Origin: Xestospongia bergquistia
Taxonomy: Eukaryota; Porifera; Demospongiae; Haplosclerida; Petrosiidae
Direction: 5' to 3'
Assembly: GCA_963965975.1 (NCBI GenBank)
Contig: OZ014417.1
Location: 7,374,821-7,438,820 of the forward strand
DNA: 64,000 nt
Part shown: in pieces, positions 7,201 to 53,877 of the stretch
Layout of the letters: each line of letters begins with the position of its first letter
Position numbering within the stretch: position 1 is the stretch's first letter
Translations under genes and position numbers: made by a program
Notes under the pieces: model-generated
The model's database searches: none
What the model saw: the letters and a program-made list of their open reading frames with translations, nothing else
What the model was told of the DNA's origin: nothing

Positions 7201-10200
7201 AGTTTCTCCAAATTCTCATCATGTCTGACATCATATATCAGAGGTGTAAAGGCACTACCAAATTTGAGGAGATCTTGAAGTAGTTGTTTGACTAAGTCAC
7301 CCTCCATAGTTTGATTTGCAATTTGTATAAAGTTTTGCAATTGCCCAACATCTAAAAAATGTATACTGTATGTATTATTTAATAAATAATACAACTTACT
7401 ATTAGCAATGCTTCTAATCCATTCCACTAACTGGATGCAGGAACAAAAGGTTTCTAAACAAGCTCGACGATGAGGATAATCAGCAACATCTTTAAGAATA
7501 CTAGCTGTATTTTCAACAGTATTAGTATCTACAGTTGCAAGTGTCATTCTTGTGCTATGTTCACTCTAAAATATGTTACTATTAGTACAATACCTATCAA
7601 CTTTTATCACTTACTTCTTTTAGCAACAAAGCATCAAGGATACCAAAGTCTCCAGTTAATCCAAGTGCTTCTTTTAATTGCATTACTGTTTGTGCAGTGT
7701 TAGTATAACAGCAAAGCTTTTGGTATTCTAATATCTTTTGGACAGCATTTTTGATCCAATTATTATTCTTAGTCTCTTTAACAGCAACACACCACTTTTG
7801 TAACTCCTCTTCCAACTGTTCCATTTCAGTTATGTCTGCAAAAAAATTAGCTACTTTCTTTATGGGAAGTTTTAGGCCATCACGAAGTTGCTTAAGATCA
7901 TCTTTGAATTCCTTACAAAGTGGAAACCAAAATTCGCTGACAGCATTTTCCAGAGTTACAACTCTTTGCTTCCTTTTGTGATTATACTCAAACAATTTTA
8001 GCTCAAAAACTTTAAGAAAAACAAGTGAATACAGACGCTCATGATGAGTTAAATAGAATACTTGCTCCATCACATCATCAGAAACAAAACTAGGACAATT
8101 ATTGAAAATTAATGGTGTGCATTCCCAGAGGTCAGATACTGGAGTCATAGTGTAGTCTAACTTGAGGGCTTCCTCAATCTTACTTGTCTGGGCTATTTAA
8201 ATGATAAGGGAAATGCTTCTTAATCACGAAACACTAACCTTTATTGATTGATCCAAAAATATATGCAAAGTGATGTAGTGTCTTATTTCTTTCCTTGAAT
8301 TTACTATAAGCATTAACTTCTGACTCAAGTGCTTTGATTATCCCTTTGTAATGTGTAAAATAGCGAATATTAAGAAAAGACTCTACAATCTGCTTGATCT
8401 TTATAAAGTCTCCAACTTTAGATAATTCATCTAAAATGTTTGGAGTAATTTGTCGGGTATACAAATCATCAAAAAATTTTTTCAGGTGTATTTTTGCTTC
8501 TTCACAAACTCTCTGAGCAGTTTTTTCTTCCGTCAAACTTGGACATATATTTGGATTAAAAATGTTTCCTAGAAGAAATGTTTTAATTTAATTCACTAGT
8601 AAGTCAGATTCTGTACATACCATAAATTTCCAAGCATTTAGGGAATGGAATCCAAAAAAGGGAGGTAAATGAAATACTCGAATCATTTGCATATTTTGAA
8701 GAGAGAAGAGCACCAAGAATTAACATAGATTGGTCATGAGGAACTTGGTTTAATTGCAATGATGTCAATAATTTACATGCTTTTTCATCCTATGTCATTT
8801 TATAAGTTATTATTTGAATAAAGAAATGTCTCACTTCATTTGGCAAAATGTTTCTTGCAGCCTCTATAATGCTTTTTAGTAAAACCTCAAAAATCGTTGG
8901 ATTGCTATTCAAATGCTTAACAAGAATTTGAAGTTGGATCTATTATTATTAAATTAAATTACATATTTGATTTTAGTTGATTAGTTACTTTACTGAGTCG
9001 TGTCAATAGCTCTGAACTAATAATTCTTTTCCAAATTTCTTGCATTTCATTGGACATCTTGATTTGAAACATTTCATTCCATTTCTATCATTTAGTAAAC
9101 TAGAGTAAATTAATGCATGGACATACCCGTAATTCATCTTCAATTTTTGATTCATGTGATTCTTGACCATAAACATTCTTCATCCAAATGGTTAATTGAT
9201 TACTTAGTGTCATGATATATGTTTCTGGTTGCCAGCCAGTTTTATTGATGACCATAAGAAATAATTCAAATGAAACTCTCAAAAGATGTGAAGATTTTCT
9301 TTTGGCTGTCTTTTCAACAATACTATTAACACCTTTATAACACAGTATAGTTTCTTCTTCCATAAGCTCACTATAATAAAAACAAGATAACAATTGTAAA
9401 AAAGGATGGCTCCAATTGTTCATTACAAATTTTATTGATATCTTTTTTCAGTATATATAGTATTCTCATTATGCAAGTAATAATGGATACTTTCAGATAG
9501 AATATTCATATGTTATAGCCCACATAGTTTGAAATTTCTGCTTTAAATTTTCTGTTTTCTACTTACCATAATAATCAAGAACTAAAGCAGTTGGTAAACA
9601 GATAGAGTCAAGAAAACAATGGGCCATAGGTTGTTAAAATGAAACCAAGACATTAAAAAAAGTTTTGTGGATGATTTTGTAAACATTTATTAGTTAGGAC
9701 TATCTTAATATGACATGATGTTATTGCAAACTTACTACTTAAACTTTTCAATCAGTGTTGTAACTGCTGTGATAAACTAAAGATAACATTAATTAAAAGG
9801 CAGTTACATGAATGAATACCTGATCATTTGACTTTATCTCTTCTGAATGTTTACAACCAATTAGCCAACAAGCAATGGGAGAAACTTCAGGGTACTTCTT
9901 GACATAAAAAAGTAATTGTTTAAGAGAACATGTAGTGACAAAGGCTCTAAGCATAAGTAAGTCATGTTTAAAATAAGGCTCCACCAAATCAAATGCATTA
10001 GTTGTAAGTGTGTCTCTAAATTGTAATATTAAATTTAAATCATAATTGTATAATTGTACTAACCTTTTTTCTTGAGACAAAGTAGCAAGAAAACTTAGTA
10101 CATCTAATCCACAAAACAAAACAAGTTCAACTTTGTCTTCAACATTCAAATCCTTTGGAATAAAATTAAATGAATCATATTCGATCAAATGCAGTAATGG

Positions 10201-11410: not shown

Positions 11411-14400
11411 GTATATAATGCACACAAAATGCATGCACATATATATCCACAAAATTAAGTAAGCATGCTGCCATATATAATAGGACTAACCAAACTCCTT
11501 CATCACCTGCAACAAAAAGACCTTTATTGTCAAAATTAGTAGGAAATATCAGTTCATCTAAAATGCACAAAGTAAGTACATTGTATAACAATGATTTAAT
11601 CACCATTTAATGTTAACATAAAGAATAAAGAGTCAGCCAATTGAGTTTCGTTAACTGCAGAAGATCTCAGAGCATTTAGAAAGGTATCCCAGGTGTATGA
11701 CTTGTTTTTTGTATCTTTCCAGGCATCTAATATGCCACAGTAAGCATCCTCATCAAGTTGTAATTGCGACAAATTCTGAAGTCTATTCTTAGGTATATGT
11801 AGTTCCTCTCCTAGTGGTTTCCATTTCGTAGCAAGCTTTTCAGCTAAATTTTTAAGATAAGTATCATCAGGACTCTCTTTGAAAATTGAATTTTCTATCA
11901 AAATAAGAGGTATAATTATTATAAATATATTGAAATCTAATATACATCAACTGTTCATTGGTTTTTGTGTGAATTTGCTCAACAGTTAAGTCAAACAACA
12001 ACAAAAATTAAAAGTAAAGACACATATAATATCTACAAATATATTAGAGTAGATAGATAGATAGATAGATAGATAGATGGATGGATGGATGGATGGATAG
12101 ATAGATAGATATAGATACAATGCATTCACATCAACATTGCCTGTGTCCTGTTACTTTAAAATGGTCATGTGAATAATATCAGAAATGATAGATTTTTGTG
12201 CTGTATTGTGTGTATTTATAGCTTAATAAATTCAATAACATATTCTTTTTCACAATTATCTATCTAATTGGCTATGGGCTATAGAAATATATTAAGTACA
12301 TACCATCATAATTTTGGCTTTGCCTCTTCATAAAAGAAACTATAAAAAAAGATACTCTAATTTGAAAATAACAAAATATGCCCACAAGAACAGTGTGTTA
12401 ATACAATTAACATTAAAGACATACTAAATACATATGGTAAGCAAGCACAAAATGAGACTGTGTAACAATTTGATTTTAATTCCATTGGCAAATCCTATAT
12501 TAAAATTAACGTCAAATGTTTGCAGAAAAAATAATGAACACAAATATAGATCTAAAACGCTTGTTATCTCTTCTTTTTATTCCAATTTTCTGTGGATGCT
12601 GCATTGATATAAAGTGATACATACAGTCTATGCATTTGACTTTTGGTACAAAGCAGTCTTGTTCCTCACAATAGATTTACCAAAGACTGAATGATGAGAG
12701 CTAAGTGTGGAAGTTGAAATGGATATTCTAAAGTGAATCTATGTATGTGTTATAAAAATGCAATTAGATATTACTCTGTGTAATATCCAAAGTGGATAAG
12801 ATGATTAATCCTACATTTTGGGCAATGGTATTATACTTTAAATTTGACTCAAACTTAAAGTTACATTTTCTGTAGTAACAATAATAGTGACAATCCTGAC
12901 ATATCTATCTCACTTCAGGTCAGTACTCAATATAGTCTTTCATTAATGACACCTTATAGCAGATTAGAAACATAAGTTGCTCCTGTACCATTATCATCTT
13001 CAGTAGTATCATCATCTTTGCTCCAACAGCCCTATTTGCTCAACTGTTTTTTTTTGAAACAACAAGGAGAGTTGTAGTCTTTTGTATAAGAAGGTAAGGA
13101 GTTCCAGAGAGAGTGCAATAGGTATTAGAAAGCATTTGTGAGGGAGAATTAGACATTGATATTGAGAGGGTAGGAGGAGCAGAAATGATGAGAAAGGCTT
13201 GAAAGTCGAGGACAAATATGTATATATGCCTAAATCAATTATTCGTGTAACATTAACTTCATATACCATAGATACAGTATCTAATTTATTTTTGTATATT
13301 TATTTGCCTAATCCTTTTCATACTAGTTTTTGCTAGCGCTATTGAACATCGTTATATTTAAAAAACAAAAAAAATTGTTTCTGCATTATGTATATTTCTC
13401 ACAGGGTCTAATGATAACTTCTTTTTACGTATTGTCAAATCAACATAAAATGATGTGCTTTAATAATGCGGTGACAAAAGAAGGTGTGGCTATACCAGCT
13501 TCGTAATACCGAATATTAAAAAAGCTAGAAAGAGGTTGCTGTCAATGTGAGATGATATTTCTTTCAAATTTCTCAACCAACAATAACAACTGCATAAAGT
13601 CAATGAAAACCATGAAGTGTCTAAGTGTCTGGCAGAGAAAACCGCACTTTGATACGAATTCTCCAATTAGTAATTACTCATAAGGCGTGGTCATTTGTTT
13701 CGCGTTAATTTATACACTAATTACTACTTGTGCGATCTCTAACAAAAAATTTCAATTGTGGTATTTGCATCTTTAGGCATTACAAACATTAAATGAAGGT
13801 AACATTAAGCATTTTCAATTGAAATAGCTGACCACAAAAACTTAAAAGCGTGTATAGGGCACCTTAAGCCCCAGTGGGCATTGACCATTTGTGACCACCT
13901 GGTTTCCTGTTTCATAAGTACAGCATTCTGCCGGCTATCTATATAGACTCAGCGAAAAAACTAAGCACAGTTAGGCTAAGTGCACCACAGAAAGGGCCTA
14001 ACAGTTGAAAAAAAATTCTGCGTATATCAATACACAGTTAGAGCTTAGAAGCCAACTCAATGACTGTATTTATGTCAATATCAGAATTGTGGTATTCTAA
14101 AGTTGTACTGCATATTTATGTCTGGCACACTATCCTGCAATGAGTGCTTTGTACTTTATTATACTTCTAAAATGCAAATATATATTACCTTGGTGCTGCA
14201 GCCTTCGCAGTTGACTTTCGACTTTTTGTTTTTTACTTGCTATTAATATTGGCTGATCAGGTGCAAAAATTGGTTTAGGTGGCTTTGGAGGACGATGTTT
14301 TCTGCTTGGACTCTTTGAATGTTTTACTATAGTTGGAGAAGAAACTGGAGTAGGTTCTTTATCATCTTGATTCTCTTCCACATTAGATATTATCTCAATT

Positions 14401-14507
14401 GGTGAGGATAAAACCCCAGCATTTTTTTTACAAGTTTCACAGATAGTTTCATTATTAGCAATTTCATCATGACAATGAGAGCAATATGTCCTTTCTTCAG
14501 ATGACAT
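1..14507 (-). CDS. Gene A: RNF213-like giant AAA+ E3 ligase with N-terminal Death domain (3' end cut by window)
   Basis: Multi-exon gene read from 14507 down to the window edge. Order of parts: zinc-ribbon first exon (14189-14507), small exon (12304-12339), Death domain (11604-11894), linker exon (11491-11557), CBM20-like exons (11210-11371, 10960-11156), helical stalk exons (about 10920 down to 5875), an AAA unit with a GMGKS P-loop (4689-4944), AAA3 (GETGCGKTR, 2512-2629; FFDEVNTTEA, 2231-2466), then AAA4 (1-1214), where the window ends. The exon order and many splice phases match gene C, so I treat these as one gene. Members of the RNF213 family are cytosolic ubiquitin ligases whose AAA core binds nucleotide and drives a C-terminal E3 module; in A that module lies outside the window. 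No frame break was seen in the parts I read. Start chosen at the ATG opening the Cys-rich exon. It could instead be a recent pseudogene broken beyond the edge. Confidence 0.88.
2231..2629 (-). other. Gene A AAA3 ATPase exons
   Basis: Two exons: 2512-2629 with IPVIMMGETGCGKTRLLRYL (Walker A) and 2231-2466 with VLFFDEVNTTEALGLIKEV (Walker B, DE intact) followed by the sensor-1-type AACNPYR. These are the hallmarks of the active AAA3 unit of RNF213. The key Lys, Asp and Glu are all present, so nucleotide binding and hydrolysis are expected. Confidence 0.88.
4689..4944 (-). other. Gene A AAA unit with degenerate P-loop (probably AAA2)
   Basis: Exon encoding VVSTRSGMGKSLRVKRMAE and later HGPEISVRHILEQMEQCM and PHPQLIHFNIAQS. 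The GMGKS Walker A and following HGP segment match the RNF213 AAA unit that lies before AAA3, where a 'RAGMGKSLYVKR'-type motif is known. No clear Walker B follows, so ATP turnover here is doubtful. Gene C has the same exon at 37646-37901. Confidence 0.65.
8230..10918 (-). other. Gene A helical stalk exons
   Basis: Series of exons (about 10620-10900, 10325-10560, 10065-10280, 9825-10010, a 41-nt exon near 9738-9778, 9127-9370, 8837-9060 in two pieces, and onwards) encoding mostly alpha-helical sequence. Typical segments are WMGLLPLLHLIEYDSF and ACWLIGCKH. The same run is present in B (17251-19148) and C (42271-46116) with conserved splice phases. By position this is the N-terminal arm/stalk that precedes the AAA core in RNF213-type proteins. 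Function beyond a scaffold or interaction surface is unknown. Confidence 0.6.
10960..11371 (-). other. Gene A CBM20-like beta domain (two exons)
   Basis: Exons 11210-11371 and 10960-11156. The first has RFYVIIDKS and ends in GKFKW; the second runs through LLVPDEFLCIKEQ, VFRYRYVLI and AEWRIV. The arrangement (beta strands, a LPIPxEF-type strand, an 'FRYRY' strand and a final W) recalls CBM20 starch-binding folds reported near the N-terminus of RNF213 proteins. Genes B (19208-19595) and C (16 kb-scale equivalent at 46162-46529) have the same two exons with the same splice positions. Carbohydrate binding is not shown. Confidence 0.5.
11372..11408. repeat. (TA)n microsatellite
   Basis: Uninterrupted TA dinucleotide tract just inside the intron before the CBM20-like exon of gene A; it starts immediately at the acceptor side. 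Likely polymorphic in length. Confidence 0.9.
11604..11894 (-). other. Gene A Death-domain exon
   Basis: Exon with acceptor at 11895-11896 and donor at 11602-11603. The translation has the Death-fold pattern: LAEKLATKWKPLGEELHIP (helices 1-2), a middle helix with ILDAWKD, then YTWDTFLNALRSS and a final helix. The tryptophans and the 'W..L...L' core fit Death domains, which assemble homotypic signalling complexes. Gene C carries the same domain at the same place; gene B does not. Family assignment is by eye. Confidence 0.75.
12050..12116. repeat. (GATA)n/(GATG)n compound microsatellite
   Basis: Tetranucleotide run of GATA units changing to GATG/GGAT units and back to GATA, in the intron between the small exon 2 and the Death-domain exon of gene A. 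Confidence 0.92.
12340..14188 (-). other. Gene A intron 1 (about 1.85 kb), repeat-bearing
   Basis: Longest intron of gene A, between the zinc-ribbon exon and a 36-nt second exon (12304-12339, reading through MKRQSQNYD). I see no convincing coding exon in it. The part from about 13680 to 13925 belongs to a dispersed repeat that also occurs in an intron of gene C. A minus-strand open stretch at 13012-13269 has no family features and is not called. Confidence 0.6.
13680..13925. repeat. Dispersed repeat, copy 1
   Basis: The block around 13686-13780 (GTGGTCATTTGTTT ... GCGATCTCTAACA ... TTGCATCTTTAGGCA) aligns in the same order with 44596-44690 inside gene C. Similarity fades on both sides, so the ends are approximate. 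No coding capacity or terminal repeats were recognised; it may be a SINE or an old DNA-transposon fragment. Confidence 0.55.
14189..14507 (-). other. Gene A exon 1: zinc-ribbon-like motif and Pro-rich linker
   Basis: First coding exon, starting with ATG at 14507. It carries CSHC and CETC pairs about 15 residues apart, like a small zinc ribbon, followed by an acidic stretch and a basic, proline-rich segment containing PPKPPKP. It ends with a donor at 14188/14187. Genes B and C have two such Cys pairs; A keeps only one, so its N-terminus is reduced or diverged. Metal binding is inferred from the Cys spacing. Confidence 0.6.
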
Positions 14508-16353: not shown

Positions 16354-17202
16354 TTATAGCAAAGCTTCTAGTGCAGTAACTATTTGTGCACTTGTCAAGC
16401 GATTTTGATAGTCGTGAACAATACACTTTTGTACAAGTGGCTTCATTGACTGCCACTGTATAGTCTCAATTCGATGTTCTCTTTCTGAACTTGTAGAAAG
16501 AGGAAGCTCACATGAAATCATTTCCATTAGTAACACACCAAAGCTATAAACATCCATTGCTGGAGAGTGGTGATCTGGGAATTGTGCTTCTGGAGCTGCG
16601 TAGCGAGGATTTCCAGGGTAAGTACTTGTGGATGATATGTTTTTAATAATATTGGCTGAGCCATAATCAGAAAGTTTGGCCTTCCATTGATCAGTACCAC
16701 ATGGTTCAAGGAGAACGTTAGGGCTGCTCACATCACGATGGAGTATTGGATAGGGTTTCCAAAGATGAAGATAGTTAAGAGCTAGTGCAATATCTCTGCT
16801 AATTTTAACAATCTGAGTATGAGTTAGAGAAGATATCTCTAGTTCTTTATACAAACTGGTAGGCATTAATTCGGTTAAAATAATGGCTATACCCTCTCGA
16901 GTAGCACCTATAAATTGAAGCAAGTTAGGATGACGAACACGGGCTGCTATCTCCATTTCACGAGTAAATATTTGTAAGATATAAGGTGAAAGAATAACAT
17001 CATGGAGACATTTAGCAGCCACTCGTAAACCTCGGAAAACAGCCACTTTTACCTCACCGTATCCTCCTTTGCCTATTACCTCCTGAGTCATCATAATCTC
17101 TTCCCTATTCACAACCCAATGCAATACTTCTGGCTGCCTTTCTCGATTAGATTGTTCTTGATGAAGAGACTTGTCTTCTAACTGTTGAAATCTTTTTTCA
17201 TC
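16354..17202 (-). other. Gene B terminal exon: protein kinase domain
   Basis: The exon opens with DEKRFQQLEDKS, a short charged helical lead, then the kinase: glycine loop IGKGGYGEVKVA, VAAKCLH (catalytic Lys), FTREMEIAA (helix C Glu), a VRHPNLLQFIGAT segment typical of TKL kinases, catalytic loop LHRDVSSPNVLLE, KLSDYG in place of DFG, YAAPEAQ (APE) and DVYSFGVLLMEM. All catalytic residues (Lys, Glu, HRD Asp, DYG Asp, loop Asn) are present, so it is probably active. The usual Lys after HRD is Ser. The protein ends about 10 residues after the final helix. Confidence 0.92.
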
Positions 17203-20200
17203 CTATATTGATATCCTTACTAAACTTCATTTAATATAGAAGCAACTGACTTTAATGGGTACTATGTTCTGTAGTGACTGCATAATACTTTTGATTAAAG
17301 CATTAACAATTTCTTGACAGAGTTGCTTGGCAAGTGAGCTCTTGAAAATGTCAACCTTTGCTTGAAGTTGCACCTATTTGCAAAAGCAGTAGTATAATAA
17401 TGTGTTTAATTAAATACCTACCTTATCCAGGCGAATTGATAATTTAGAATTAATTTTTTCATTCCAAATATGACTTAAATTCTCATGGACTTTTAGTGCA
17501 AACATGTCGTTCCAATCCTGTTAACCATTTTGAAAATCCAAAATAATTTTATAGATAATGTAGTACCTGTAGTTCATTCATAAGTTGAAGTGATTCAGAG
17601 TCATGCATATTCTGCATCCAAGAAACTAGCTGTTCACTAAGTTCCTTAATTAATTCATCAGTCTGAGCTGTTATCACAGTTTTGCTAATAATCAATAGAC
17701 ATAACTCAAGTGATGCTTTAAAAACAGCTGAAGTATTTTGTGATGTGCAAGCAGCTACCACATGCACAATTTTATTAGCACCATTATAACATAGTGTAGT
17801 TTCTTCCTTTTCAATGTATCTGTAATTGTTAAAAACCTGATGTAATTCTATGAAAGAGTTTATTTGTCATCCAATCTGGTATCAGATGTCAATTAGTCTC
17901 TCATTAAACATTATATGCCAATTTCATACAAAGATTTTACATATTAACATTAAACTTACACAATATTATGAAGCAGATGAAAAAGTCCTGTTATTACTGC
18001 AGTCAACTAAACATCATATTAATAGATGAAATATAGTAATTTATCTAGCTACAATATGACTAACATATACCTGATTACAGTCATTGTCATCCAATTTCAG
18101 TTTAGGCACGTGTTTCATGCCAAGTAGCCAACAAGCAAAAGGAGAAGATTCTGGACAGTATTGAACATATGTGAGCAATTCTCTAAATGGACAAACAGCA
18201 AGGAACGCTCTGGACATAAGCCAGTCATCTTGAAAATAAGGCTTTACTAAGTTAAAAGCATCAAAGACAAATCTAATAAAATAATCAAAAAGGAGCATGC
18301 ATACTACAGTGCTAACTAACCTATTATTTGGAGAGAAATTAGAAAGAAAATTTGGTATATCTAAACCACAAAACAAAGTTGGAAGAATATCTCTTTCAAC
18401 ATTTGGCAAAATAAATGGCTTCTTTGAAACAAGTGAATCATGTTTGATTACATGTAATAGTGGCAGGAGACCCATCCATTCATTATGTGATTTCTCCATA
18501 GTAACATTACATAAAGAAGTGATTACTGGGAAAAGTTGCTGAGTTCTAAATTCAGAAATTGTCAAATTATCAATAAATTGTTCACTGACTTGTATTGGCT
18601 ATCAAAACTCTTCACCATTGAAACACATTTCTCAAAATCAGCAGTAGGTATATAAAAACTTCTTACAATTTCTAGAGTGGAAGTCATGTCCTCAGCAAGA
18701 CATTCTTTGTTAGATAATAAAGAATTAGGAATCAGTACTTCAATCAAAATAAAACCAGCTTGAAATCTCTCTAAACCAGATAGTGATCTCATTATTGCTG
18801 CTATTTTATTAAGAAGTAACTATTGCATATGAGAGTGAGGTCATCATTACAGAATATATGTGGAACTAACTTTGTCAAATGCTAAAGAATAAAGGGCATC
18901 TGTCTTATGCACACATTTTACATAATGCCTTAAACTATTTATTATAGAATTCAAGTGTTGTCCTTTCTCTTTTGCTTCTTCTAACACATTATCTGTGCAT
19001 ATTGTCATCCATTGTTGCTCATTACAGGCCCAATCCAGATACAAAGGAAGTGCATCATTACAAACAGCTTCTAAAGAATGTCGCTTCCAAAACTTAACCC
19101 GACTCTGACTTCCTTGTGGTATAATCACAGGATCAAACTGAACATACTCTAAAAGATTTCATATACAGGCATTACTATGTTGTTACATGTATATATGAAT
19201 TCCATACCTGAATCTGATGCTACTCCCACTACTCTCCAGTTATCTTCAGAAAGTAATTCAATTGCACTAGTTTTCTTTTTACGAACAATAGCATAAGCAT
19301 AACGAAATGCAACTTTCCTCTCTTTAATCCATAAAAATTCATTAGGAATTGGTAATTTGCTATGATACATCTGAAAACTTTCTTTCTCGTAGATACTAAG
19401 TGACAAATAATACTATAATACTGAACATAGAATTAACCTAACCATTTAAAATTTCCAAATAAAGTTTTTCCATCATCAATTTCCTTTGAAATAATAGAAA
19501 CTCCAAACTGATCGGATGTAACAATAGATTTGTCCACAATTACATAAAAGTTGATTCTTCTTTTACAATCTTGAACATGGATATCTGGAAGAGACCTACA
19601 GTATAATGATTATGAAAATAGATAAACAAGTTAGTCTGCCTCAAACAAGGCATGTATGATCCTATGTAGTGCTAACCAATGTTCCCGAGAACCTTTTAGT
19701 GTTGCTACAATGAGTTCACTAAGTGAACTGTTTTCATTACTATCACTAGATTCCTGATTTGAATAAAATAGCTATGAGACACTTAGTGACATGAACTTAC
19801 CTTATCAATGTTGTCATCTTGTTCTTTGTCATCATAATCAGATGAATACTGAATCAACTTGACTATATATACAAAATAGATCCTATTATATATATAAGTT
19901 TGAACCTTGCAGTCATATGATTCTTACATGCTATACTATCGCTACTTAAATTTTTTATAGTCCTACCTTGTGGAGTTAGTGATTTTGTAGATCCAGAGGT
20001 CATCTCAAGAGCCTGAGAATTACATTCTTTGCTGGCCACTTCATTTAATGTGATGTCAATTAAACCACAGCCATCAGCACACATAATCACTTCATCATCT
20101 TTAAACAGCTCTTCACCACAATTATAGCAGTAATCCATAACGTCTTTATATTGCATTTCTAACTCCTCTGGAGTTATCTCTACTGGAAGAGAAAACTTGT

Positions 20201-20300
20201 GACTTAATCTACAAGTTGTACAGGTGATTTTTTTTCGTCCCTTTGTGACTTCATTGCCACAAAAGAAGCAATAGCTAACGTCCTTCTCGATCGCTGCCAT
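16354..20300 (-). CDS. Gene B: RNF213-type N-terminal module fused to a TKL-like protein kinase
   Basis: About 17 exons encoding roughly 1,040 aa. Exon 1 (19967-20300) has a double zinc ribbon (CFFC..CTTC and CYNC..C); I start at the second Met because gene C begins MATGKKEVKYC at the same point. Small acidic exons follow (19801-19862, 19677-19753), then the CBM20-like pair (19443-19595, 19208-19397) and helical stalk exons (18871-19148, 18590-18819, 18321-18545, 18071-18272, 17960-18006, 17567-17819, 17422-17517, 17251-17373). The last exon (16354-17202) is a full protein kinase. There is no Death domain, AAA core, RING or RZ finger. Splice phases along the N-terminal module match A and C, so the joining is genuine and not two neighbouring genes. 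The likely role is a signalling kinase controlled by the same input module as its ligase neighbours; substrates are unknown. Confidence 0.83.
17251..19148 (-). other. Gene B helical stalk, homologous to genes A and C
   Basis: Eight exons with the same order and splice phases as A and C. Marker segments are LPLYLDWACNEQQWMTI, WMGLLPLLHVIKHDSL, LLFDYFIRFVFDAFNLVKPY (exon edge within it) and ACWLLGMKH. The final exon before the kinase (17251-17373) corresponds to C 42271-42378. In the RNF213-like genes this stalk continues for thousands of bases into the AAA core; here it stops at that point. Confidence 0.72.
19208..19595 (-). other. Gene B CBM20-like beta domain
   Basis: Exons 19443-19595 (RRINFYVIVDKSI ... 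GNFKW) and 19208-19397 (LPIPNEFLWIKER, VAFRYAYAIV, NWRVVG). Intron positions are identical to genes A and C. Ligand unknown; assignment to a CBM20-like fold is by strand pattern only. Confidence 0.5.
19967..20300 (-). other. Gene B exon 1: double zinc ribbon
   Basis: Two C-x2-C knuckle pairs: CFFCGNEVTKGRKKITCTTC, then CYNCGEELFKDDEV followed by CADGC. The segment between them (PVEITPEELE, YKDVMDYCYNC) is nearly the same as in gene C. An upstream in-frame ATG three codons earlier (20309) is possible, but the paralogue supports 20300. Confidence 0.65.
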
Positions 20301-20447: not shown

Positions 20448-20620
20448 TTATCCGTTTCTGTGTGGTCCTAAAGTGAGTGCTGTATTATCGAAAGCTGGAT
20501 TAATATTAGATTGTAACATTCTTCCATCAGATGGACTATCTATTTTAGTATCTGAAATAAAGAGAAGTGACAACAGTCCATATATAGCAGCCGATATGCT
20601 GTCTTTTAATTTGAACTCTC
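20448..20620 (-). pseudogene. Decayed fragment of gene E, upstream of gene B
   Basis: Minus-strand translation reads SDTKIDSPSDGRMLQSN and onwards, matching SGTKIGSPSNGGPLQSN in gene E (about 50990-51110); the DNA also aligns over roughly 150 bp. No flanking E exons are intact. It shows that a copy of the E-plus-ligase unit once existed upstream of B. Confidence 0.55.
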
Positions 20621-20695: not shown

Positions 20696-21209
20696 ATGAG
20701 TACTTCATCTAATGGAGAAAATTTTGTGAGTTTAAAGTCTAGTGAAGAAACTGTTAGCCACATAGGTCTTGGTCAATTAGCTACTACCAGTGGAGAAAAA
20801 TGTGTTGAAATGTATGATCCCACAACATCAAATAGCTCAAGTTTATGTTCAGCTCAGTGCTGTGTTGATGAATCCAATGTGTTTCAACCTAAGGACAACC
20901 CTACAATTAAATCATTAAAAACCAGTGGCCCTGCTGGGAAGACAAGAAACTTCCAACTGTTGTGGTACAGTCAGTTTCCATGGATTAGTGTGTGTGAATC
21001 ACAAAAGAGTATTTTGTCTCTACTGTCGATATGCTGAAAAACATCACTGGTTTATGTTCAGCAGGTGTGGTGACAAGGTATTTACTGAAGTAGGATTTCA
21101 CAATTGGAAGAAAGCCATTGAAAAGTTTAAAAGTCACCAAAGTTCTCATTTTCACAAAGAAGCACAGCTAAAATTGGTTGCTCAAAAAAGACCAACAATT
21201 GGAATATAA
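20696..21209 (+). pseudogene. hAT-type transposase remnant with TTF zinc finger
   Basis: Plus-strand reading frame beginning at ATG 20696, with a Ser/Thr-rich N-terminus, then a TTF-type zinc-finger pattern: QFPWISV, then after a frame change near 21000, FCLYC, FTEVGFHNWKKAIEKF and HQSSHFHKE. The W..FPW..C..FC..C..F...GF.NWKKA.E.F..H..S..H order is typical of ZMYM1/hAT-like transposases. The frame breaks and the loss of any downstream transposase body mark it as a dead fragment. It is the only plus-strand coding trace in the window that I accept. Confidence 0.65.
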
Positions 21210-22093
21210 GAATTTTTTTTACTGAGCCCCCACATTTTGAGTGGTGTCTCTGCCTCTGTAAAAGTAATGCTTTGGTGAAACTTCACAGTGCTAGCACAAA
21301 GAAAGGAATTGGTGTCCCTGAGTTCTTGATTGATTCAGAAAGTGTCACTAATTTTCCAATAATTATAATTCAACTTAATTACCTGCAATATATCTTATGT
21401 TTATAGGTCCAAGTTTTGGCCTAAATTGCCAGAATTGTGCCAACTACACAGACAATGCCATAGTTAATTACATCTGATGAGTGGGGTAACTGTATGGGGT
21501 GTCATGTTCAATCTTTTCAATTACATTCTATGTAGACTCATTATCAAGTGATGTAGTAACAAGTATGAAGAGAACAAATTTAGTAGAAATGTACTCCAGT
21601 AGCTCAGTGTGTTTTTCTATGCTAATGACAGTGATCTATCTGATAGTTTGAGAGAAGAAGTTATTAAAATGCCAGAACTATTTCCAACATTAGTTATTAT
21701 ATACCTGATCAAAAGAATTATATCTGTGAACTAAACAAAGAAACTGTTTACAATATTTTAATATTTTTATTCAAATGGTACTCTTAAGACAAAGTTTTAC
21801 ATTATTTCTAATAATAGTTTTCAAATTAACTTTGTATAAATTTTATGATTGACTATAATACTACTGTCCATATGTTCTACATGACTTCAATTTGACTTTA
21901 ACATCAAAAAATGTTATTATTTTGTAGCAGCTATTCAGCAAAACATATTCTATGCAAAACAATGACTACCATAACAAACTAGAAAATTTATAGCAGCACT
22001 GTCTAAGTATATTAGCAAAGCACTACATATTAAAAGTTAATAAAAGTATAAGTACATAACAACTAACTACTACTAATAACTATAATATCAATC
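21210..22093. other. Spacer downstream of gene C
   Basis: The right part (about 21890-22093) is conserved in sequence with 53670-53877 downstream of gene D, so it is 3' UTR/flank that was duplicated with the gene. The left part may hold further decayed transposon sequence continuing from 21209; no clear frame was found. Confidence 0.6.
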
Positions 22094-28000: not shown

Positions 28001-31000
28001 AAATAGTGAGTAGCATTGATCCATATAATCAAAAAAAATTATTTATTTACACTGGAAATGATTTCATAATTCCTTGAAATTGCTTGATAGTTTGGACCAA
28101 GATTTTTGGGTCAGAGAATTTAATATTCTTAAGAAGCTATAAAAATTAATAAGAAACTTTACAATCAATAACAATGTTTTTCAACACAAACATTATTATA
28201 TCTTCTCAAAAATGTAAATTTATCTGTACTCATTGCCAAATCAGGTGGTATTTGAGAGATGACATGTTCAATAAGTAATGCTACTGCTACTACCTTCTGC
28301 CAGTTTGATCTGCATTTGATGGTTATAAAACATAGTACATATACATAAATAATACCTTGCTTTTGTAAGCATTTTATTACTAGCGTCATTATGACCCTTT
28401 AGGTATAACAAAGACTCCACAGCACTTTTACTAGAATGAAAGTCTAAAATCCAATTCTTCATGTTTTCATCATTCCAGTTGATTTTGGCCGGCAATAGAT
28501 GATCAATAACACACTCAACAGCTTCAAAATGGAAAATCTATTAATTTTAAAAAGACTGTACAATAATAACTTTCAATTTACTAACCAGTTCTCCAGATGA
28601 AAGGAGTTCCTTTTCTTTGACGATATTAGGAAGCTCAGAAAATGTTTCAGATAATTCTGCAAGCCAAAAAACTTCCTTTTCCATTAAACCATAAGCAAAA
28701 TGGACACCAACAATGGCATTAATTAGAGGAAAAGGTTGTTGTGACAAAACAGCTGGTTCAAAAGTACTAACAAGTTCATTTATTACTTTATGAAGAATCT
28801 ATAGACAGAACAAGGTATGAAAACATACTTATAATAACTTCTCTCTAACCTCGTACACACTGTCCATGCATGTCTCATCAAAAGGTAATACTAGGTTCCT
28901 GATATAATCATGAAGATAGTATTGATAAAGCTGTTGTGAATCCTCAAGAGGAACTGCTTCAACATGTTCATAGAATGTGAGATTGGCTGCTGTACTTAAT
29001 AATTCTGTGAAGGTCTTCTTTAGCTTGTCTAGGTATTTAGTGTATTGCAGTAATGAATGATACACTATTCTTACCTTCATTGAGATGACACTTCCGAGTA
29101 CTTTTTCCAACAGCAGCTTCAATCTGGTCAATGACTTCCCATGAAAATGGAAACTTACAACAATAGTTCTGTCTCTTGAGATTGGTTACAGGAACACTGG
29201 AAGTAGCAATTGCATTGTAATCAAATTGTAAGAATTTTACATCATCAAATAGAGAGAGCCAAAGTTTTGTTATAGAAGAGTTGCTGACTTCTCTCAATAA
29301 ATCTAAATTGCAGTTCTTATCAATTTGAGAGACAATATATGACAGAATGTGTTGAATTTGGACATCCATCAATTTCTTAATTGAGTTTACTAAAGTAAAG
29401 TTGGCTTGTAGTTGATGTCTGTTCAATGCTGTATTTACTGCCCATTCTTCAGGATTAGGAATACAATCGTCTCTTTCTTTCAAAAGTTCTCCCATTCTCT
29501 TTAGCAAACAGCAAATAAAAGTACTAGAATCTGGGTGTAATTGTAAAAAATCATCCCATAATTGTTTGAAGTCTCATATTCTTGTAAAACAGTAGCATAC
29601 TAGAATTTGACAATTGGAGGATTTGAAAAAGCTGTGGAATAACTACAGAATGTTTTAAGGCAAGCTATTAGTTCATTGGTAGCTGTGTCTATGTCTATAG
29701 TTAAAGTACATTTGTAGGGTTTAATAAATAATTGTTGCTTACATGCAAAAAACAACAAAAACAAACATAAGACTAAATGACTTAATTCATATTGAATTGA
29801 ATTGGACTGATTTGCAATGTACTAACTCACCAAACTTGAGATGGGAGTTATCTGGAATCAATTTCAGAAGAACATCAATTACTCTTTCCATATTTTTGTA
29901 TGATTGGGCAGTCATAATTTTTGACACAGCAAGTTGAATGCTATCTCTAATCCTTGTACTAATTTTAAAATCTGAAGGAACTTCCTGGTCTTTCTCAACA
30001 AGCATGTTGAAGAATTTGTGTAGAGGTTCAAAGAGAGCATATTTCACTACTTGGTTTGCTCCTGTTGAACATGTTAGCTCATCAATGTGAATAGATGTCC
30101 ATGGTCCTCCTTGAAATGAAGTGAATGCTGTACCACCTGCAACTCGAGGTAATTGGATAATAAAAAGCACATGAGTAACACCACACTCAGGTTTCCTTAG
30201 TCTTCTCATCTCATCTATTAGTCGATGTTGAGCACAAGCTATGAAGTCCAAATTACTATCTTCATAATCACATTGAACAATCATAACTTTTTTTAAATCA
30301 GAACTTGATTCAAACAATCCTCTAATGTTGGTACAGGAGATTGAATGCAACATTTAATATGGTGTACCTGACTTCACTGCAAAAATCTATTTCTGTATCA
30401 AAATCAGAAAGTCGAGAAATCTTCACATTCTCTTTGGGAAGATGAAGACCCACTGCCAGCTCAGATAAATAATGATGCGTCAGTAAAGGTCCGAAAGTAG
30501 TTACCTAAATGTATTATTATTATTAAAATTAAAAAAAAATTGGTACTATGTACCTGAATCATTGCTACATTAGAACAATCAATTAAGCAATTTCGAAGAC
30601 AATCAATTAGCGAGAAGTGGTTTTGTTGATCAAAGTAGATATTGAAGGCTGAGTCTTTAGTTTCTTCATCACACATAGCACTACCAGATCTCAAACGAGC
30701 TAAAGCATCAACAGATGCAGTTTGTAGAAGAATTGTAATACTTTCCTTCAGCACCTAAAACAAATGTTTAGTAACACACAATGTATGTAAGTTAATATCA
30801 ACAAACTTCATCATCTTCAGGAGAATCCAACATTTGATAAACATGAAGAATAATAGAAGCAGCAGTGTGATCTTGATAACCCACAAATGCATCAGACACA
30901 AGAAACCTATAGTATTAAATAGCACCAACTATATAAGCAATAAACTATATTTATCCTACCTTTTACCATTGTGTTCAATGTTAGCAAATCTTTCTACCCA

Positions 31001-34000
31001 CTTTTGAAGATTCTTTGCTAATGACTTCTGTTTTTGTGTCAAAATAGTTTCTGACACAACAAAGTGTTTCTCTAATCTATTAATAAGTGCAGTAGGAAAC
31101 TGTGTAAAGACACGACTTCTCTCAGCTATGATGATAAGACGAAAATTTGGATCAACTCGACATTTAATTCTATATGATCGTAAACCCAGATCAACATACC
31201 TACCAGTAGGTAATTCAGTGTAACATTGGTTAAGGACATCATAAAGACTCTCATAGATCTGCTCATAGTTCAGTAATACTACTGGGTAACCTTTCTCCAT
31301 ACACACTTTAATCTTATTGATGTTAACACATACTTGAGTGTACTCTGTGTCCTTAGGGAAACTACTGCCATAGAATACATAAGGTGTTTCTTCTCTTAAT
31401 AAATCAGTCTGAAGGATCCGTAGTGCTGACTGGTTCTCTGTTATAAATAGAAGATAACGATTCTCTTTCTTTGTTGCACCATCTCCATGTTGAATCTTCA
31501 AAGGCTCCAAACTATCTTTGATAAGCTCTAGTGCTTCATTTTCTTTCTCATCTAGAGACACTAGTGATGCAGGGTTTGGAATTTCCTTCAATGGGTTAAT
31601 CTTGGGATGTCCACTAAAATTACGAAGAATGACACTTCGATAATCTTCAGGTGAAGGAGGGGCTCCTTTTTCAATACATTTCCAACCAAGCATTTTGATC
31701 ATTGTGTAAAAATCTCTCAGACCAAAGAATTCACGAACTTCGTCCTTTTGCTCATCTCTGTACTCTTCTTGTTTAGTACAAATGTTACGATACATTGTAG
31801 CTAGTGCATCAAATGATTTTGTTAGTTCATCTCTAACATGATCAATGTCAACTATATTAGCAATACCTCTTGCACTCTTTACAAGCTCTTCTTGAGCTAT
31901 CGGACATCGAGTGACCATGATACCTCTATTCATCTTAGCAGGATCAAGAGCCCAGTTGGAAATTCCAATAAAAGCCACTCTCTCCTCAGGAGCAATTTCC
32001 ATTTCATCTGGGTTAGTTCCTGCTGTACCATCTTCAAGATAAGGATGTAAAACTTTTAATGGTAGGTCAGGAGCATCTTCTGCTAGACCAATCTCTTCTA
32101 AAACAACAACTGAAGCAAATTTTTTTGTGTCTTGACTTTTTTGAAAGTCCATGGCTTCTTGAAATAGCTCCTTCAACGTAGAAGTGGTAGAGAACTGATT
32201 ACATTGATATGGAAAAAGTTGAACTTGTTTAAGGTTCTTCAACAATTCATTTTGTGAATACTGGCCTTGCATTGACTCTGCAACAATGGATTTAGCTAGT
32301 GACTTTGAGCTACCAGGCTTTCCTACAATAAACAGTGGTAGTCTGTTTTCAATACACACCACCATCATGAAGACATTCTCACGTAGAGCAGCATTATGTG
32401 CAATATTTTCTCGAACATTCATTGCATTTAGAAAGACCTTCTGAATGCTATATTTTTAACATTATAAACAAAAGTCATAAGCTTTTTATACCTTTCGACT
32501 TCCATCTTAAAAACATCAGCTTTTTCATCTTTTGTTGCTCCTGGGATACAAAATGGCACTTGAAATTGTGTGACTACTTTTTGAACAAAAGCCTCTTTGA
32601 CTTCTTCTTTTGCCAATCTAGCATAGTAGCTGACACTGACAGCGTACATTAGAGCTCGTGTGATATCATGAAGATCCTAGCAAAAGGTTAACAAATACTT
32701 ATACATTTGCAAAAAGATCAACATTAGTAAGCACTGTATAATTTTTAGGTAATATAATATTTCATTTGTTTAGCCGCTGAATTAAATCCTGTTTCGTTTG
32801 CAAGCTCACCATGGCAGGTATAATTGAAAACCATATAAAATATCTCTTCACAGTTAGAGTAAAGCAAAATAGGCTTTATGTTTCTAATTAAAAATTATAG
32901 CCATCTGAAAATTGGTTTCAATTTGATATAAGAATGTGTGTGCTAAATTTTATGGTTCAGAGGTCAACATGTATTATATAAACCTGTTAACTCAATTTTG
33001 TAAAGATATACTTATTTGTCACCAAAGGAGTATATCTTTACAATTGCTCTTGTTAGCATGCTTAAATTAAATTTATGGACCTAGCAACAATGATTGTTAT
33101 CATAAAACAATGTAACTCACTGATGATAGTATTATCTATCTGTAATATAATATTCATACTTGATTTGTTCTTGTAATTCTCATTTTGTTCATAATTTCTT
33201 CAAGTAGCTTCTCTTTTAAAACTTTGACTGTCATGAGTTTTTCCAAGAACCATTTAAAAAGAATCATAGCTCGAACGATATCTCGTAAGCTCACATACTT
33301 GCATTCATTCTATTAAATCTCCATTAAATAAAATACTTCAAACCTATGACTTGCCTTTTGATCCCTCATACATTTTTGACACTCACAAAGGACTGCTACC
33401 ACTGTCCTCTTTACTACAGCTTTATTATCATGACTAATCAGTTGACAATCAAATAGCTTCAAAATTAAAAGCTCATTAGTTATAATTGGATGTTAAACAT
33501 TTAAAGTTATACCTGATTAAGGACAATTCTTTCAATATAATTCTCTTCTGTCTTTCCACTAACAGTTCCAAAGTCATATACAAACTGGAACATGCTTGGG
33601 GGAAGAGGAAGAACACGATATACTAATTTCCTGAGAGGAACTGATCCTGAAAATTAAATAAAAATATAAAAGAAAATAGTATAAACCATTTTACCAAGTT
33701 TAGGAATTCTTTCTTCATCTCTCAAATAAAATCCAAGTCCAGCACTTTGTAAACTTTTTATTGTATCTTCATCGTGACTGTTTAAATACAAGATGTTGTG
33801 ATTAAATACAAGTAGTTATGATTATAAATGTAAAATTGTAAAAAGGTGGAAATGAATGCTTGCAAAATAATTTTATCAGAATCTAACATTGGTAGGTTCT
33901 ATATGGTTTCTACTATAATATGTTTGCACTGAATTAGGACATTAAGCAACATGAATAACTTTGTTGTCTTATTAAATAATGACATATGACTTTCATCAAT

Positions 34001-40121: not shown

Positions 40122-43100
40122 TATATGTATATACATGTATGTATACGCATATATACATTCATAGTCCTTCACATAAAAGAGCAATGTATAATATTAGTAT
40201 TATGGACATGGTTTATACTGACCTCAATAAATGTATGAACATCGTCAGCATTTTCAGTTGCTACTAACACCAGTTTACTTTGTAGTTCCTTAAGATCATT
40301 AAGTTTGAATATCTTCTGAGTACCTTGATTACGTGTCATCTTCACCACTAGACGTATAGCATCATCAGAACAATGCAGTATTCTTCCTGGAATAGCTGCA
40401 ATGTTGTAGATACCTCTAGTGTTTATTAAATTCATTTGCTCAATATTACTACTCTGAAAATTGGAGAGTGCTTCTTGAACTCTTTTCAATTCACCCAATC
40501 TTGTATTACAAGATTTCTACATAAATGTGCATTTTGTTCCAAAATTTTAGCATAGACAAACTTACAGCAATTTTTCTTAAGTCAGGATTTTCATCTATGA
40601 ACTTCCATAAACTTTTACATCTGTTTATTAATGTTTCACAATTCTCATCAAGACTGACATCATATATGAGAGGAGCAAAGGCGCTACCAAATTTGAGGAG
40701 ATCTTGAAGTAGTTGCCTAACTAAGTCACCCTCCATAGTTTGGTTGGCAATTTGAATGACATTCTGTAACTGACCAACATCTAAATGGGCCAATATATAT
40801 ATATACATAATCATTACACTTAAGTGATCTATGCAACTTACTTTTAGCAACAATCCTGATCCATTCTACTAAATCAATACAAGAACAAAAAGTTTCTAAA
40901 CAAGCTCGGCGATGAGGACTGTCAGCGATATCTTTTAGAATACTAGCAGTATTTGCAGTTGTATTATCTACAGATGCAAGTGTGGTTTTTGCATCTTCAA
41001 GCTAAAAAAGGACTTTACTATATCATAGTTATCAACTCTAACACTAACTTCTCTTTGCAACAAAGCTTCAACAACACTAAAGTCTCCAGTCAGTCCAAGT
41101 GTCTTCTTTAATTGAAGTAGTGTTTTTGCTGTGAAGGAGTAACTACAGAGTGTTTGGTAATCTCCTATCTTCCTAGCAGCATCACGTATCCAATTCTTAT
41201 TAGTCTCTTCAACAGCATGACACCACTTTTCTAATTCTTCTTCTATTTCTGGCAGCGTAGTCATGTTTTCAAAAAAATATGCTACTTTGTTTAATGGCAA
41301 TTGAAAGCCATCACAAAGCTTTTGAAAATCAGCTCTGAATTCAGAGCAAATTGGTAACCAAAACTCTTGGACAACTTTTTCAAAAGTTACATCAGATTCC
41401 TCTACTTTGGCATGGTACTTTGTTTTTTCTTTGGCAAACATTTTAAGAAAAATATTCGATGATATCCCCTCGCAATGGGTTAATGTGAATACTTCCTCTA
41501 TCACATTCTCAGGAACTGAAGTAGGGCAATACTTGAATAATGCATATGGTGTAATGTCCCAGAGGTCAGATACTGGAGTCAAAGTGTAGTCTGAATTGAG
41601 AACTTCTATTATCTTAAGAGATTCAGCTATTGTTAATTATATTACTTTAAAAATATCTTGAAAATATCACTAACCTTTACTAAAAACCTGAAATGTACAT
41701 GCAAAGTGCTCCAGTTTTTTGTTCCTTTTCTTAAACTCACAGTAAGTAGTAAATTCTGACTCAAGTGCTTGCAGTGCCCCTTTGTATATAGATTCTTTGA
41801 GAAAACTAGTATTAAGGAAAGATCTTGCTATTTCCTTGACCTTTATAAAGTCTCCAACTTTAGATAATTCATCTAAGACTTTTGGAGTGATCTGTCTAGT
41901 GTTTAGATCTTTAAAAAACGTTTGAAGTATTGTGATTGCTTCTTCACAGATACTTTGAGCAGATTTTCCTTCTTCTGTATCCTGAAGAATCCCAACATTG
42001 TGAATATGTTCTATAAAAAAAGTTTAAATTTTTAGAATTTATCTGAGTTTACAGGTACCATAAAGCTCCAAACATTTGGGAAGTGGATTCCAAAACAGGG
42101 AGGCAAGTGAAATATCATTGTATGAATACTTTGAAGAAAGAATAGCTCCAAGAATAAACACAATTTGGGAAGGTAAACAAGATTCTAAAGAAGTCAATAA
42201 ACGACAAGCTTTTTCACCCTATATCAAATTTAATGAATCAAGGTATAATCTGTACACATAAAAAAATCACCTGTGGTGCATCACTTTGGACTGACTCTAA
42301 GATGTTAACCCGTAATGCATCCACAAAATTTTGGTTAAATTGATTGGTTAGCAATTTGATCCGACCTTCAAGCTGCACCTATATAATTATGCCAATGACA
42401 TTCCAGTTTGATATGCTTTATTACCTTATTAACACGAGTCAATATCTCTGCAATAACTTTTTTTTTCCATATTTTCAGCATTTGGTCACACATTTCAATT
42501 TCAAGCATATCACACCAATCCTATATATAATTAATACCATAATATACACAAATTAATACATGTAAGGTTCTACCTGTACTTCTTTTGTTATTTTAAGCTC
42601 AGATGGTTCTGAACCGTGTGTCTTTGTTATCCATAACAATAGGTGCCTAACTTGTTGTTCAAGAAAATGTTCTGGAGACTCCCATCTAGCTAAACAGATC
42701 AAAGCCAATTCAAGCGTAGCCTTCAATAAACATAATGTATTTGGTAAACTGCAATGAGCTATTTTATTCAAAATATGATTCACACCCTTATAGCATAGCG
42801 AATACTCGTTTTTTTCTGCTTGGCTGTAACAAAAGTGACATTAATAATAGTAGCATTTTGAAGGAGAATACTAATTTATTGCTATAATGAATAAGTAATA
42901 TGGTATTATAGTAGTACAGAGTTAAAAAGCCAATTTGACAATGAGGTTCTCTTGTGTTGATGATTTCATACTGAAAATCCCACAGGTGTTGCGTTTGATC
43001 ATAAGACACAATCCTGGCCTTTCATAAGGTTCTCAGAAATTGTTCAACCACTTGTTTTTGTTCATTTTGTAAATTAAGGTATGGAGTAAATATGTGCAAT

Positions 43101-50845: not shown

Positions 50846-52338
50846 TCAATATCGAGAACCCCTGTTATTATAATGGTATGATGAGGGTAATGAGGAAAAG
50901 GGATAGTTTCCAGACATACCACTAACTCCACCCCCTCTGTGAGGTCTCCTGCCTGGAAGGTTGTTAGACAATCCATTATGGGATGTTTGCCCAGTTCTTT
51001 GTGATTGAAAACTGAGTGCTGTAGTATGGGAATCAGGATTAGATTGTAATGGTCCTCCATTTGAGGGACTACCTATTTTAGTACCTGAAACAGAGAGATG
51101 AGACAACTCTCCGATAGCAGATCATCTCGGCTAGTAACATGTTCCTTGGTATCCTTAGGATATTGACCAGATGATGTAGTACTACTAAAACTATGAGCTC
51201 GAAATCTAGTTATAGTAGGTTCAGTAGTAATGTTACTTTCCATAGTATCCATAGTATAGTCTTGATCTATCTCCATATCTTCCTCCTCATCATCAGCTCT
51301 TTCTACAAACAATCCATATTGTTCCTCTTCTTTGTCATGATCTCAATGTTTACCTCTACCAGCACTGCCTCTAGCAACATGTGAAATGTCTTGTGTTTGA
51401 TTTGTATTTATTGAAGACTTAACTTTTGTTGCTGTATCACTATTGTATGATGATGATCTGGTCTTTGGTGTCTCAGATAATTTATTACCAGTACTAGTCT
51501 TACTGGATAATAATGGCTGCTTACCATCTCTCTGTATATCTGATCCTAATCTCTCTTGTAGTACAACACCTCCTTTCGAATGGTTCATCTTTTAGTCAAT
51601 GTTCTAGGTTAGGTATAGGTTTTGTAGTTAACAACTGATTAGTAGTACCAAGTAAAGAAAGTGTCAGATTTTGTCTTAGATTTAGGAAATTGAGCTGCAA
51701 GTTTAATATGGTGTCTAGGTGTCTTTGCCTTTGAGACAGGTGGGTCTGGTGAAAGAGTCAAACGAATAGGTGGTGGGTGTACTGAAGATACCACCAGTTG
51801 TACTTTATTAACAAAGAACTTTACACACACACACATGCATATACCATTGTCAAGGGATGAAGTCACTGGTTTGAGGTGAAAGTCTCGAGGGGTAAACACA
51901 CTTTAAATTCTTGTCAGGATTTTGATCACACATTGTCTATAATAGAAATAGAATTAGTTAATTTACAATAATTATGATGCATTCATCAGATACATGTACA
52001 CACATTTACCTCGCAATATGTCATCATGTTTGTTGCATATTTAAATCCACAATATCAGCAAGTTATATTATCAGTAACAGTAGTTGTAGTTATAGCTGTA
52101 GGAGAGAGAGGTCAAAGGTCATCTCAAATGACTTATACAATGATAAAAATTGAATAATAATTACTAAAATTATGTATTAAAAAGGACATTAAGTACATTA
52201 TGTATGGTTCATTCCTCTCATGTTCAAACCTGGGATAGTAGAATTGGGTCTGTGTCTTTCTTGAGAAATGGAAGAGTAACCAAGATGTACTTGTCGATGA
52301 GCATCAAAGATATCACTAAATTGAGGATGACGTTCATC
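50846..52338 (-). pseudogene. Gene E: low-complexity protein gene, probably broken
   Basis: Minus-strand coding-like pieces: 52230-52338 (DERHPQFSDIFDAHRQVHLG), about 51670-51800 (HPPPIRLTLSPDPPVSK), 51313-51588 (MNHSKGGVVLQERLGSD, Ser/Thr-rich), 51110-51312 (ERADDEEEDMEIDQDYTMD) and 50846-51090 (GTKIGSPSNGGPLQSN, ending in a Gly/Ser/Arg tail). The protein would be disordered, with no known domain. An in-frame TGA at about 51343-51345 separates two pieces that otherwise share one frame with no plausible intron, and the join between the first two exons meets a stop, so I call it a pseudogene. A sequencing error or unusual splicing could rescue it. Confidence 0.45.
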
Positions 52339-52942: not shown

Positions 52943-53877
52943 CTTACTATTCACAAAGAGTCATTGTTCCACAAGTTCATAAGGAACATAATTATCCTCC
53001 TTATGAAAGTAATTAACTGATGAAGTCTTATCTTTAGGCTCCTCCCTCAGTTTTGATGCGAATGTGTGTAGGAGAGGGAGTTGGCTAGGGTGGTAGCACA
53101 TTTCCCACTTGAGGTGAACTATAAATAACATTAACTTATCCCTAGTTTCATGATCTCTTCCTCTTCCTGTAATTGCTTTGTTAATTCAAAGTATCTTTCA
53201 AACTACTTTCTCTTTTCTTCCTGGATTTTTATCATCTCTTTATTATATAATACCATTGTGGATAATCCTTGATTTCCATGATATTCTTATGTATGTTTGA
53301 CCTGATTTGCAATATTGGACCACTTCTGGCAAAACATTGGTGATCTGATTTGTGAAAAGGGACCACTGTTAAATCATTTCAAAAAACTATTTTCCATACA
53401 TACATTTGCTATATATACAACTATTCATGATAACTGCATGTATACAAAATCATTTTTGAGGTGTTTTAAAAGTGGCCCCTTTAATTTCACAAATCAGGTG
53501 ACAAATGTTTTGAGAGACTTATTACAAATCAGGTCACACGTACACACACACACACACATAGATATATACATATATAAGTATTTAGATTATTTTTGTATAT
53601 CAATTTTTAAGATTATCTATAATACGTAATACCATTTTCACTCCATTTGTACTTTATGACCTTGTAGTTTATCAGTTCGACTTTAATATCAAAAAAAACA
53701 TTATTTTTGTAGCAGTAATTAACAAAAAGTATTCTATGCAAAACAAATACTAGCATAACAAACTAGAAAATTTAGAACAGCATCATCTGACTGTACTAGC
53801 AAAGCACTACACATTAAAAGTTAATAAAAGTATAAGTACATAACAACTAACTACTACTAATAACTATAATATCAATT
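52943..53877. other. Spacer downstream of gene D
   Basis: Contains a (CA)n run near 53538-53560 and, from about 53670 to 53877, a flank closely similar to that of gene C (21890-22093). No gene recognised. Plus-strand open stretches here lack any family feature. Confidence 0.6.
53537..53560. repeat. (CA)n microsatellite
   Basis: Short ACAC run in the spacer between genes D and E, followed by TATA-rich sequence. Confidence 0.8.

Follow-up and report, generated by a model that had tools for sequence, protein, structure and literature searches.

A predicted fusion of an RNF213-type N-terminal arm and a TKL-like kinase in a gene cluster of the sponge Xestospongia bergquistia

Structure of gene B

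The window analysed here is the whole 64,000-nucleotide stretch of the Xestospongia bergquistia genome assembly (contig OZ014417.1, positions 7,374,821 to 7,438,820), which carries four minus-strand genes of one family, named D, C, B and A. Gene B, as read from genomic DNA alone, is very probably a single-gene fusion of an RNF213-type N-terminal arm (N-arm) and a TKL-like kinase. This architecture had been proposed in an earlier reading of the locus (the original prediction), and was recovered here as a frame of 14 exons and 1038 amino acids running from 20300 to 16354, with 13/13 introns GT-AG and one terminal stop codon.

The model was obtained with a semi-Markov gene finder, the coding model of which was trained on conserved open reading frames (ORFs) of the window, with the kinase ORF left out. 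The gene finder linked exon 17373-17251 to the kinase exon 17202-16354 without prompting. It over-joins genes (C, B and their flanks came back merged into a single gene of 112 exons and 3 stops); we therefore took over its exons and not its gene borders. Hand corrections were made to the start (20300), the acceptors 18819 and 17819, and an extra exon 18006-17960, all but the start being placed with A or C as a guide. The chosen frame had the best coding score of the three in 14/14 exons, in a test that is not wholly independent, as the training took in one B exon (18044-18598). The score was positive in 13 exons, the only negative one being the 47-nucleotide exon 18006-17960. The parts of the gene are listed below.

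16354-20300, minus strand: gene B, RNF213-type N-arm fused to a kinase; 14 exons, 1038 amino acids
19967-20300, minus strand: exon 1, carrying the start codon and a double zinc-ribbon-like segment with its cysteine motifs at 11, 27, 58 and 74 (residue numbers)
19677-19862, minus strand: exons 2-3 (19862-19801, 19753-19677), linker at the position of the Death domain of A and C
19208-19595, minus strand: exons 4-5 (19595-19443, 19395-19208), region CBM20-like by position only
17251-19148, minus strand: exons 6-13, RNF213 stalk, related to the human and mouse RNF213 stalk (19148-18871, 18819-18590, 18545-18321, 18272-18071, 18006-17960, 17819-17567, 17517-17422, 17373-17251)
17203-17250, minus strand: fusion intron, 48 nucleotides, GT-AG, phase 0; counterpart of A 8834-8790 and C 42270-42219
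17194-17202, minus strand: ancestral exon start GATGAAAAA retained before the kinase, putative breakpoint just after
16354-17202, minus strand: exon 14, linker, complete TKL-like kinase and stop codon
16378-17088, minus strand: Pfam Pkinase match, residues 795-1031

Junction, kinase and arm

In both A and C, an exon homologous to 17373-17251 is followed by a phase-0 intron (45 nucleotides in A, 52 in C) and by a next exon with a start resembling that of the kinase exon of B, which reads DEKRFQQL. The two comparators are:

8621-8939, minus strand: gene A, exon 8939-8835 followed by exon 8789-8621 (DEKACKLL...)
42059-42378, minus strand: gene C, exon 42378-42271 followed by exon 42218-42059 (GEKACRLL...)

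The start of the next exon in A is held in common with B, and its remainder is replaced in B by the kinase. When 196 predicted acceptors were ranked by agreement with the kinase exon over its first nine bases, A 8789 came first (9/9) and C 42218 second (8/9), the next site reaching 6/9. Across five window settings A ranked first in all five and C second in four (with one tie with another site); with 30 exon bases compared, the C acceptor dropped to eighth. Counting that of B, three of the strand's 4098 AG sites reach at least 8/9, and these are accounted for by B, A and C. Since the best acceptor matches are those of the stalk-continuing exons of A and C, the breakpoint is placed roughly 9 to 12 bases within the ancestral exon, and the stalk-to-kinase splice looks inherited from the ancestral gene. 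By our reading of these alignments, the acceptor match is the strongest DNA-level answer to the possibility that the kinase exon is a separate gene.

The window has a GC content of about 32% and many introns near 50 nucleotides, features that fit a sponge genome without being specific to one. At 48 nucleotides, the fusion intron sits at the lower quartile of predicted intron lengths (median 52.5), and its splice sites are mid-ranking (donor 122 and acceptor 127 of 194) under weight matrices trained on those same predicted sites. Reading through the intron (17203-17250) gives a stop after seven codons and a stalk-only protein ending VSCFYIK; intron retention could possibly yield a kinase-free isoform.

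A complete TKL-like kinase in place of the AAA core and E3 modules had been predicted, and both parts of this agree with the domain searches. The Pfam Pkinase match (8.6e-35, residues 795-1031) covers profile positions 3-258 of 263, and the predicted domain is complete. Its nearest solved structures in a PDB search were CTR1 (1.2e-24) and RAF1 (9.9e-23), the matches running in the order CTR1, RAF/BRAF and then CSK among the best 60 of 152. We take CTR1 and RAF to be TKL kinases, and the TKL-like label refers only to these nearest PDB matches. The glycine loop lies at residue 800, followed by K820, E838 (assigned via the RAF alignment), H911-R912-D913, N918, D935 and an APE motif at 959-961; the core catalytic Lys, Glu, HRD Asp, Asn and DFG Asp are all present, and the kinase is predicted to be active. 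The kinase occupies a single exon, its frame is closed by a stop just upstream, and the first methionine in that frame, Met793, precedes the glycine loop by seven residues. Because exon residues 22-39 align with the lead-in of the RAF kinase, the kinase unit probably begins before Met793. An AlphaFold model of the kinase exon alone was of low confidence (predicted local distance difference test (pLDDT) 34.6 overall), with a helical linker and a pLDDT of 73 for the first ten residues. Searches for AAA or E3 sequence, by tblastn with the C core and D (E up to 1) in B and the B-A gap and by Pfam in B, yielded nothing convincing, the best tblastn match being 40 residues with a stop at E = 0.13. 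No kinase match was found in A or C within the window, beyond which A continues; the sole other kinase-like match lies upstream of C (25.6% identity over 86 residues, E = 0.09).

Over residues 168-756, which comprise the CBM20-like region and the stalk, the identity of B is 45% with A and 48% with C, and that of A with C 45%, the C row of the alignment having been assembled by hand. The phase is common to A and B in 9/9 introns compared, three of the B borders having been set with A as a guide; the original prediction had likewise described matching splice phases with the RNF213-like neighbours. The alignment column is the same in 7/9, and the other two introns are 4 and 6 columns off within a gapped stretch. 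Since B is as distant from A and C as A is from C, the reading frame appears to have been kept over a long divergence, in the arm at least.

Comparison of a B/A/C profile with the human and mouse N-arm (hhalign) gave a score of 47.9 over 329 collinear columns, ending at the last stalk residues of B, versus 24.0 for the best of 100 column shuffles and 14.8 for the reversed arm. The predicted RNF213-type stalk of B is upheld by this score and by the identities to A and C, and on this evidence the stalk appears related to that of the RNF213 N-arm. The match ends at chain residue 1044 of 8S24, which would place the join near human RNF213 residue 1004 if the 40 extra residues of the 8S24 chain are a tag. 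No Pfam domain was found in the B arm; because the human and mouse RNF213 arm also lacks a Pfam match up to E = 1, Pfam is no test of the CBM20-like region.

Exon 1 is 54% identical to its C counterpart over 90 amino acids. Its putative zinc ribbon shows as four paired-cysteine motifs, with all Pfam scores below cutoff (zf-C4pol, the best, 6.9e-4; DZR 0.03). The zinc-ribbon-like segment is double in B and C; the start exon of A (14190-14507, minus strand) is shorter, with a single one (Pfam subthreshold). The start of human RNF213 is presumably zinc-ribbon-like as well.

The family was identified mainly through gene C. The neighbouring genes and the exons that matter here are:

64000 to about 53900, minus strand: gene D, 3' part
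about 48200 to 22100, minus strand: gene C
46750-47013, minus strand: gene C Death-domain exon, Pfam Death 5.3e-5, above cutoff
30961-32446, minus strand: gene C AAA exon, RNF213, PDB phmmer E = 6.8e-136
14507 to beyond base 1, minus strand: gene A, start; runs off the window
11605-11892, minus strand: gene A Death-domain exon, Pfam Death 1.4e-5, above cutoff

Among the matches listed in an ORF-versus-ORF comparison of the window, the N-terminal exons are common to A, B and C, a downstream part to A and C, and the 3' parts to C and D. The long AAA exon of C aligns to RNF213 of human and mouse (E about 1e-135, PDB phmmer). Among the 692 residues of C beyond the fusion point, the stretch 242-674 matches the end of the RNF213 arm and the linker (5e-30 to 2e-26), and the first 240 have no RNF213 match in the same comparison. 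In the E3 part of C, the RZ finger is above the Pfam cutoff (2e-14) and the RING below it (0.0094). Because the AAA exon, the arm end and linker, and the RZ finger match RNF213, gene C is by these matches RNF213, and the family likewise. The gene-finder model of the C core contains one internal stop.

The Death domain of A and C sits between the zinc ribbon and the CBM20-like region, and the two exons have 44-45% identity. B shows no Death match in Pfam (E up to 0.1) or tblastn (E up to 1) searches, the domain having been lost there or never present. The module that B has in common with its neighbours is therefore not an identical one. We know of no Death domain in vertebrate RNF213.

Origin, function and alternative readings

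The order of events at the origin of B is inferred as follows. A partial duplication of an RNF213-like gene within the tandem array would have produced B, the copy retaining the zinc-ribbon segment, the CBM20-like region and the initial portion of the stalk as far as the beginning of one of its exons. At that point a one-exon TKL kinase would have been gained in frame, leaving the copy without the linker, AAA core, E3 module and the Death domain of its neighbours. As predicted from its domains, B is an RNF213-derived protein and no longer an RNF213 ligase, and it is probably a functional gene.

For its function we favour, with slightly less than even confidence, a recruited kinase. The N-arm would bring or hold the kinase on surfaces or partners recognised by the full-length paralogues, and crowding where the ligand of the arm is dense would allow the kinases to activate one another in trans, the signal then being relayed by phosphorylation, with either downstream proteins or the paralogous ligases as targets. 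Proximity also activates other TKL immune kinases. One sensor serving two outputs, ubiquitylation and phosphorylation, in one cluster is plausible. The cluster may already couple the RNF213-type arm to Death-domain signalling, and in B to a kinase instead. A more doubtful extension is that sponges have a class of RNF213-arm sensor kinases, in which a portable recognition arm is joined to ligase and kinase effectors, with Death-domain versions as a third coupling.

Several observations weigh against the fusion of an RNF213-type arm to an active kinase, or narrow it. The hhalign probability of the human RNF213 match is just 73.6, and RNF213 in the PDB was found neither by the B arm alone (E up to 1) nor by the three-gene profile (E up to 10). 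The CBM20 identity given in the original prediction is without sequence support from profile searches or the shuffle test: the region (about residues 168-270) scored 19.2, below the best shuffle at 23.6, with 27 aligned columns in register near the end of the human domain, and an AlphaFold model of the counterpart region of C (read-through) had a pLDDT of 31.2. The kinase has the core catalytic residues of the TKL kinases RAF and CTR1, but it reads HRDVSSPN and not HRDLKSPN, Ser915 replacing the HRDxK lysine (Lys in CTR1), and DYG (D935) and not DFG, and unlike them it carries an RNF213 arm; because of these two replacements its activity is not certain. Between A and B over 574 codons, the nonsynonymous (dN) and synonymous (dS) rates by the Nei-Gojobori method (NG86) were 0.44 and 1.06, a ratio of about 0.41, in which a dS near 1 is imprecise and which describes the A-B pair and not the lineage of B or its kinase. 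Scans of viral contigs with the kinase, one stalk exon and an N-module profile, and of genome contigs with the N-module profile, confirmed no other species or paralogue that has the fusion; each scan was a few short patterns run on collections not meant for animals.

Among the alternatives, the strongest concerns function: B could be mainly a modulator, competing for ligand or packing via its stalk, its kinase phosphorylating the neighbouring ligases as a brake or switch. Such a role fits nearly as well as a recruited kinase, and we consider it unlikely without being far-fetched. B is flanked by A and C, all three on one strand and with the arm in common, and lacks an AAA ring, the ATPase activity of which RNF213 coat formation needs, according to passages of PMC11549300. 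Against this, the binding partners and substrates of B are hypothetical, as is stalk packing between RNF213 molecules.

It is improbable that the fusion is genuine in the genome and non-functional, an unexpressed or dying chimaera. The location in a duplicating array and the missing Death domain, AAA and E3 parts would suit such a product, but 1038 codons and 13 introns without a frameshift or stop, the A-B dN/dS ratio and a frame kept, at least in the arm, over the divergence separating B from A and C would not. Still less probable are two genes, a truncated arm that stops soon after 17251 and an independent kinase beginning at Met793 or in an unseen upstream exon. An independent 246-residue kinase is possible on paper, as the Pfam match starts at residue 795, after Met793-794, and read-through of the fusion intron would end the arm as a stalk-only protein. 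However, a mere 48 nucleotides separate the stalk and kinase exons, the acceptor and exon start of B match their counterparts in A and C, the alignment to the RAF lead-in begins before Met793, and the kinase exon has no upstream in-frame ATG. Least probable of all is a join of two loci in assembly, to which tandem arrays of similar genes are prone, but identity between the B arm and those of A and C is below 50%, the window contains no further kinase-like match except the weak one upstream of C, and an error would preserve frame, splice site and intron length at the junction only by luck.

If the fusion of arm and kinase is as read here, B bears on the question whether the RNF213 N-arm alone recognises microbes, and offers a natural test in which the N-terminal part of the arm is joined to a foreign effector. 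Recruitment of B to the targets of RNF213 would make this portion of the arm the sensor, with no need of the AAA ring or the ligase, and an immune-type gene array would have diversified its output by swapping an effector at a common splice site.

Related systems and further features of the window

Passages of PMC11549300 place the CBM20 of human RNF213 at 378-515, with positive selection in it and in the adjacent stalk, and state that RNF213 coats on pathogens require ATPase activity; microbe recognition by the N-arm is argued there from positive selection and truncations, and a truncation lacking CBM20, which made bright structures, may impair recruitment non-specifically. In mouse RNF213 the N-arm spans residues 1-1290, according to part of PMC7311170. 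B resembles the human and mouse proteins in its stalk over the 329 columns, up to its last stalk residues. Unlike them, it has no remainder of the N-arm, linker, six-AAA core, hinge, RING or RZ finger, and has a kinase instead.

RIPK1 and IRAK are innate kinases that combine a Death domain with a TKL kinase. Like them, B joins a TKL kinase to what may be an immune sensor arm, and its sister genes A and C have Death domains; B differs in having no Death domain and in the RNF213 type of its arm. Fusion of C-terminal kinases (TKL and TK kinases among them) to receptor modules has occurred repeatedly across eukaryotes, as the authors of PMC12716839 conclude in the part of that work used here, with GPCR-TKL/K and GPCR-TK in choanoflagellates and GPCR-TK also in sponges. 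Those proteins have seven-helix membrane domains, unlike B, which is presumed from its family to be cytosolic. In an open-access literature subset, no description of an RNF213-arm/kinase fusion was present among the matches listed, in agreement with the predicted novelty of the architecture; gene models without annotation in protein databases may nevertheless contain it.

Between C and B, at about 20990-21210 on the plus strand, lies an open fragment with a Cys/His-containing, zinc-finger-like stretch; no Pfam match above cutoff was found for it, and it presumably resembles a transposon-type finger. A 119-bp stretch 5' of both B and C (about 20456-20574 and 50995-51107) is 75% identical between the two and is a putative promoter or repeat in common. 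The 3' flanks of C and D (21887-22090 and 53672-53874) are 87% identical over about 205 bp, and these two genes look like recent duplicates.

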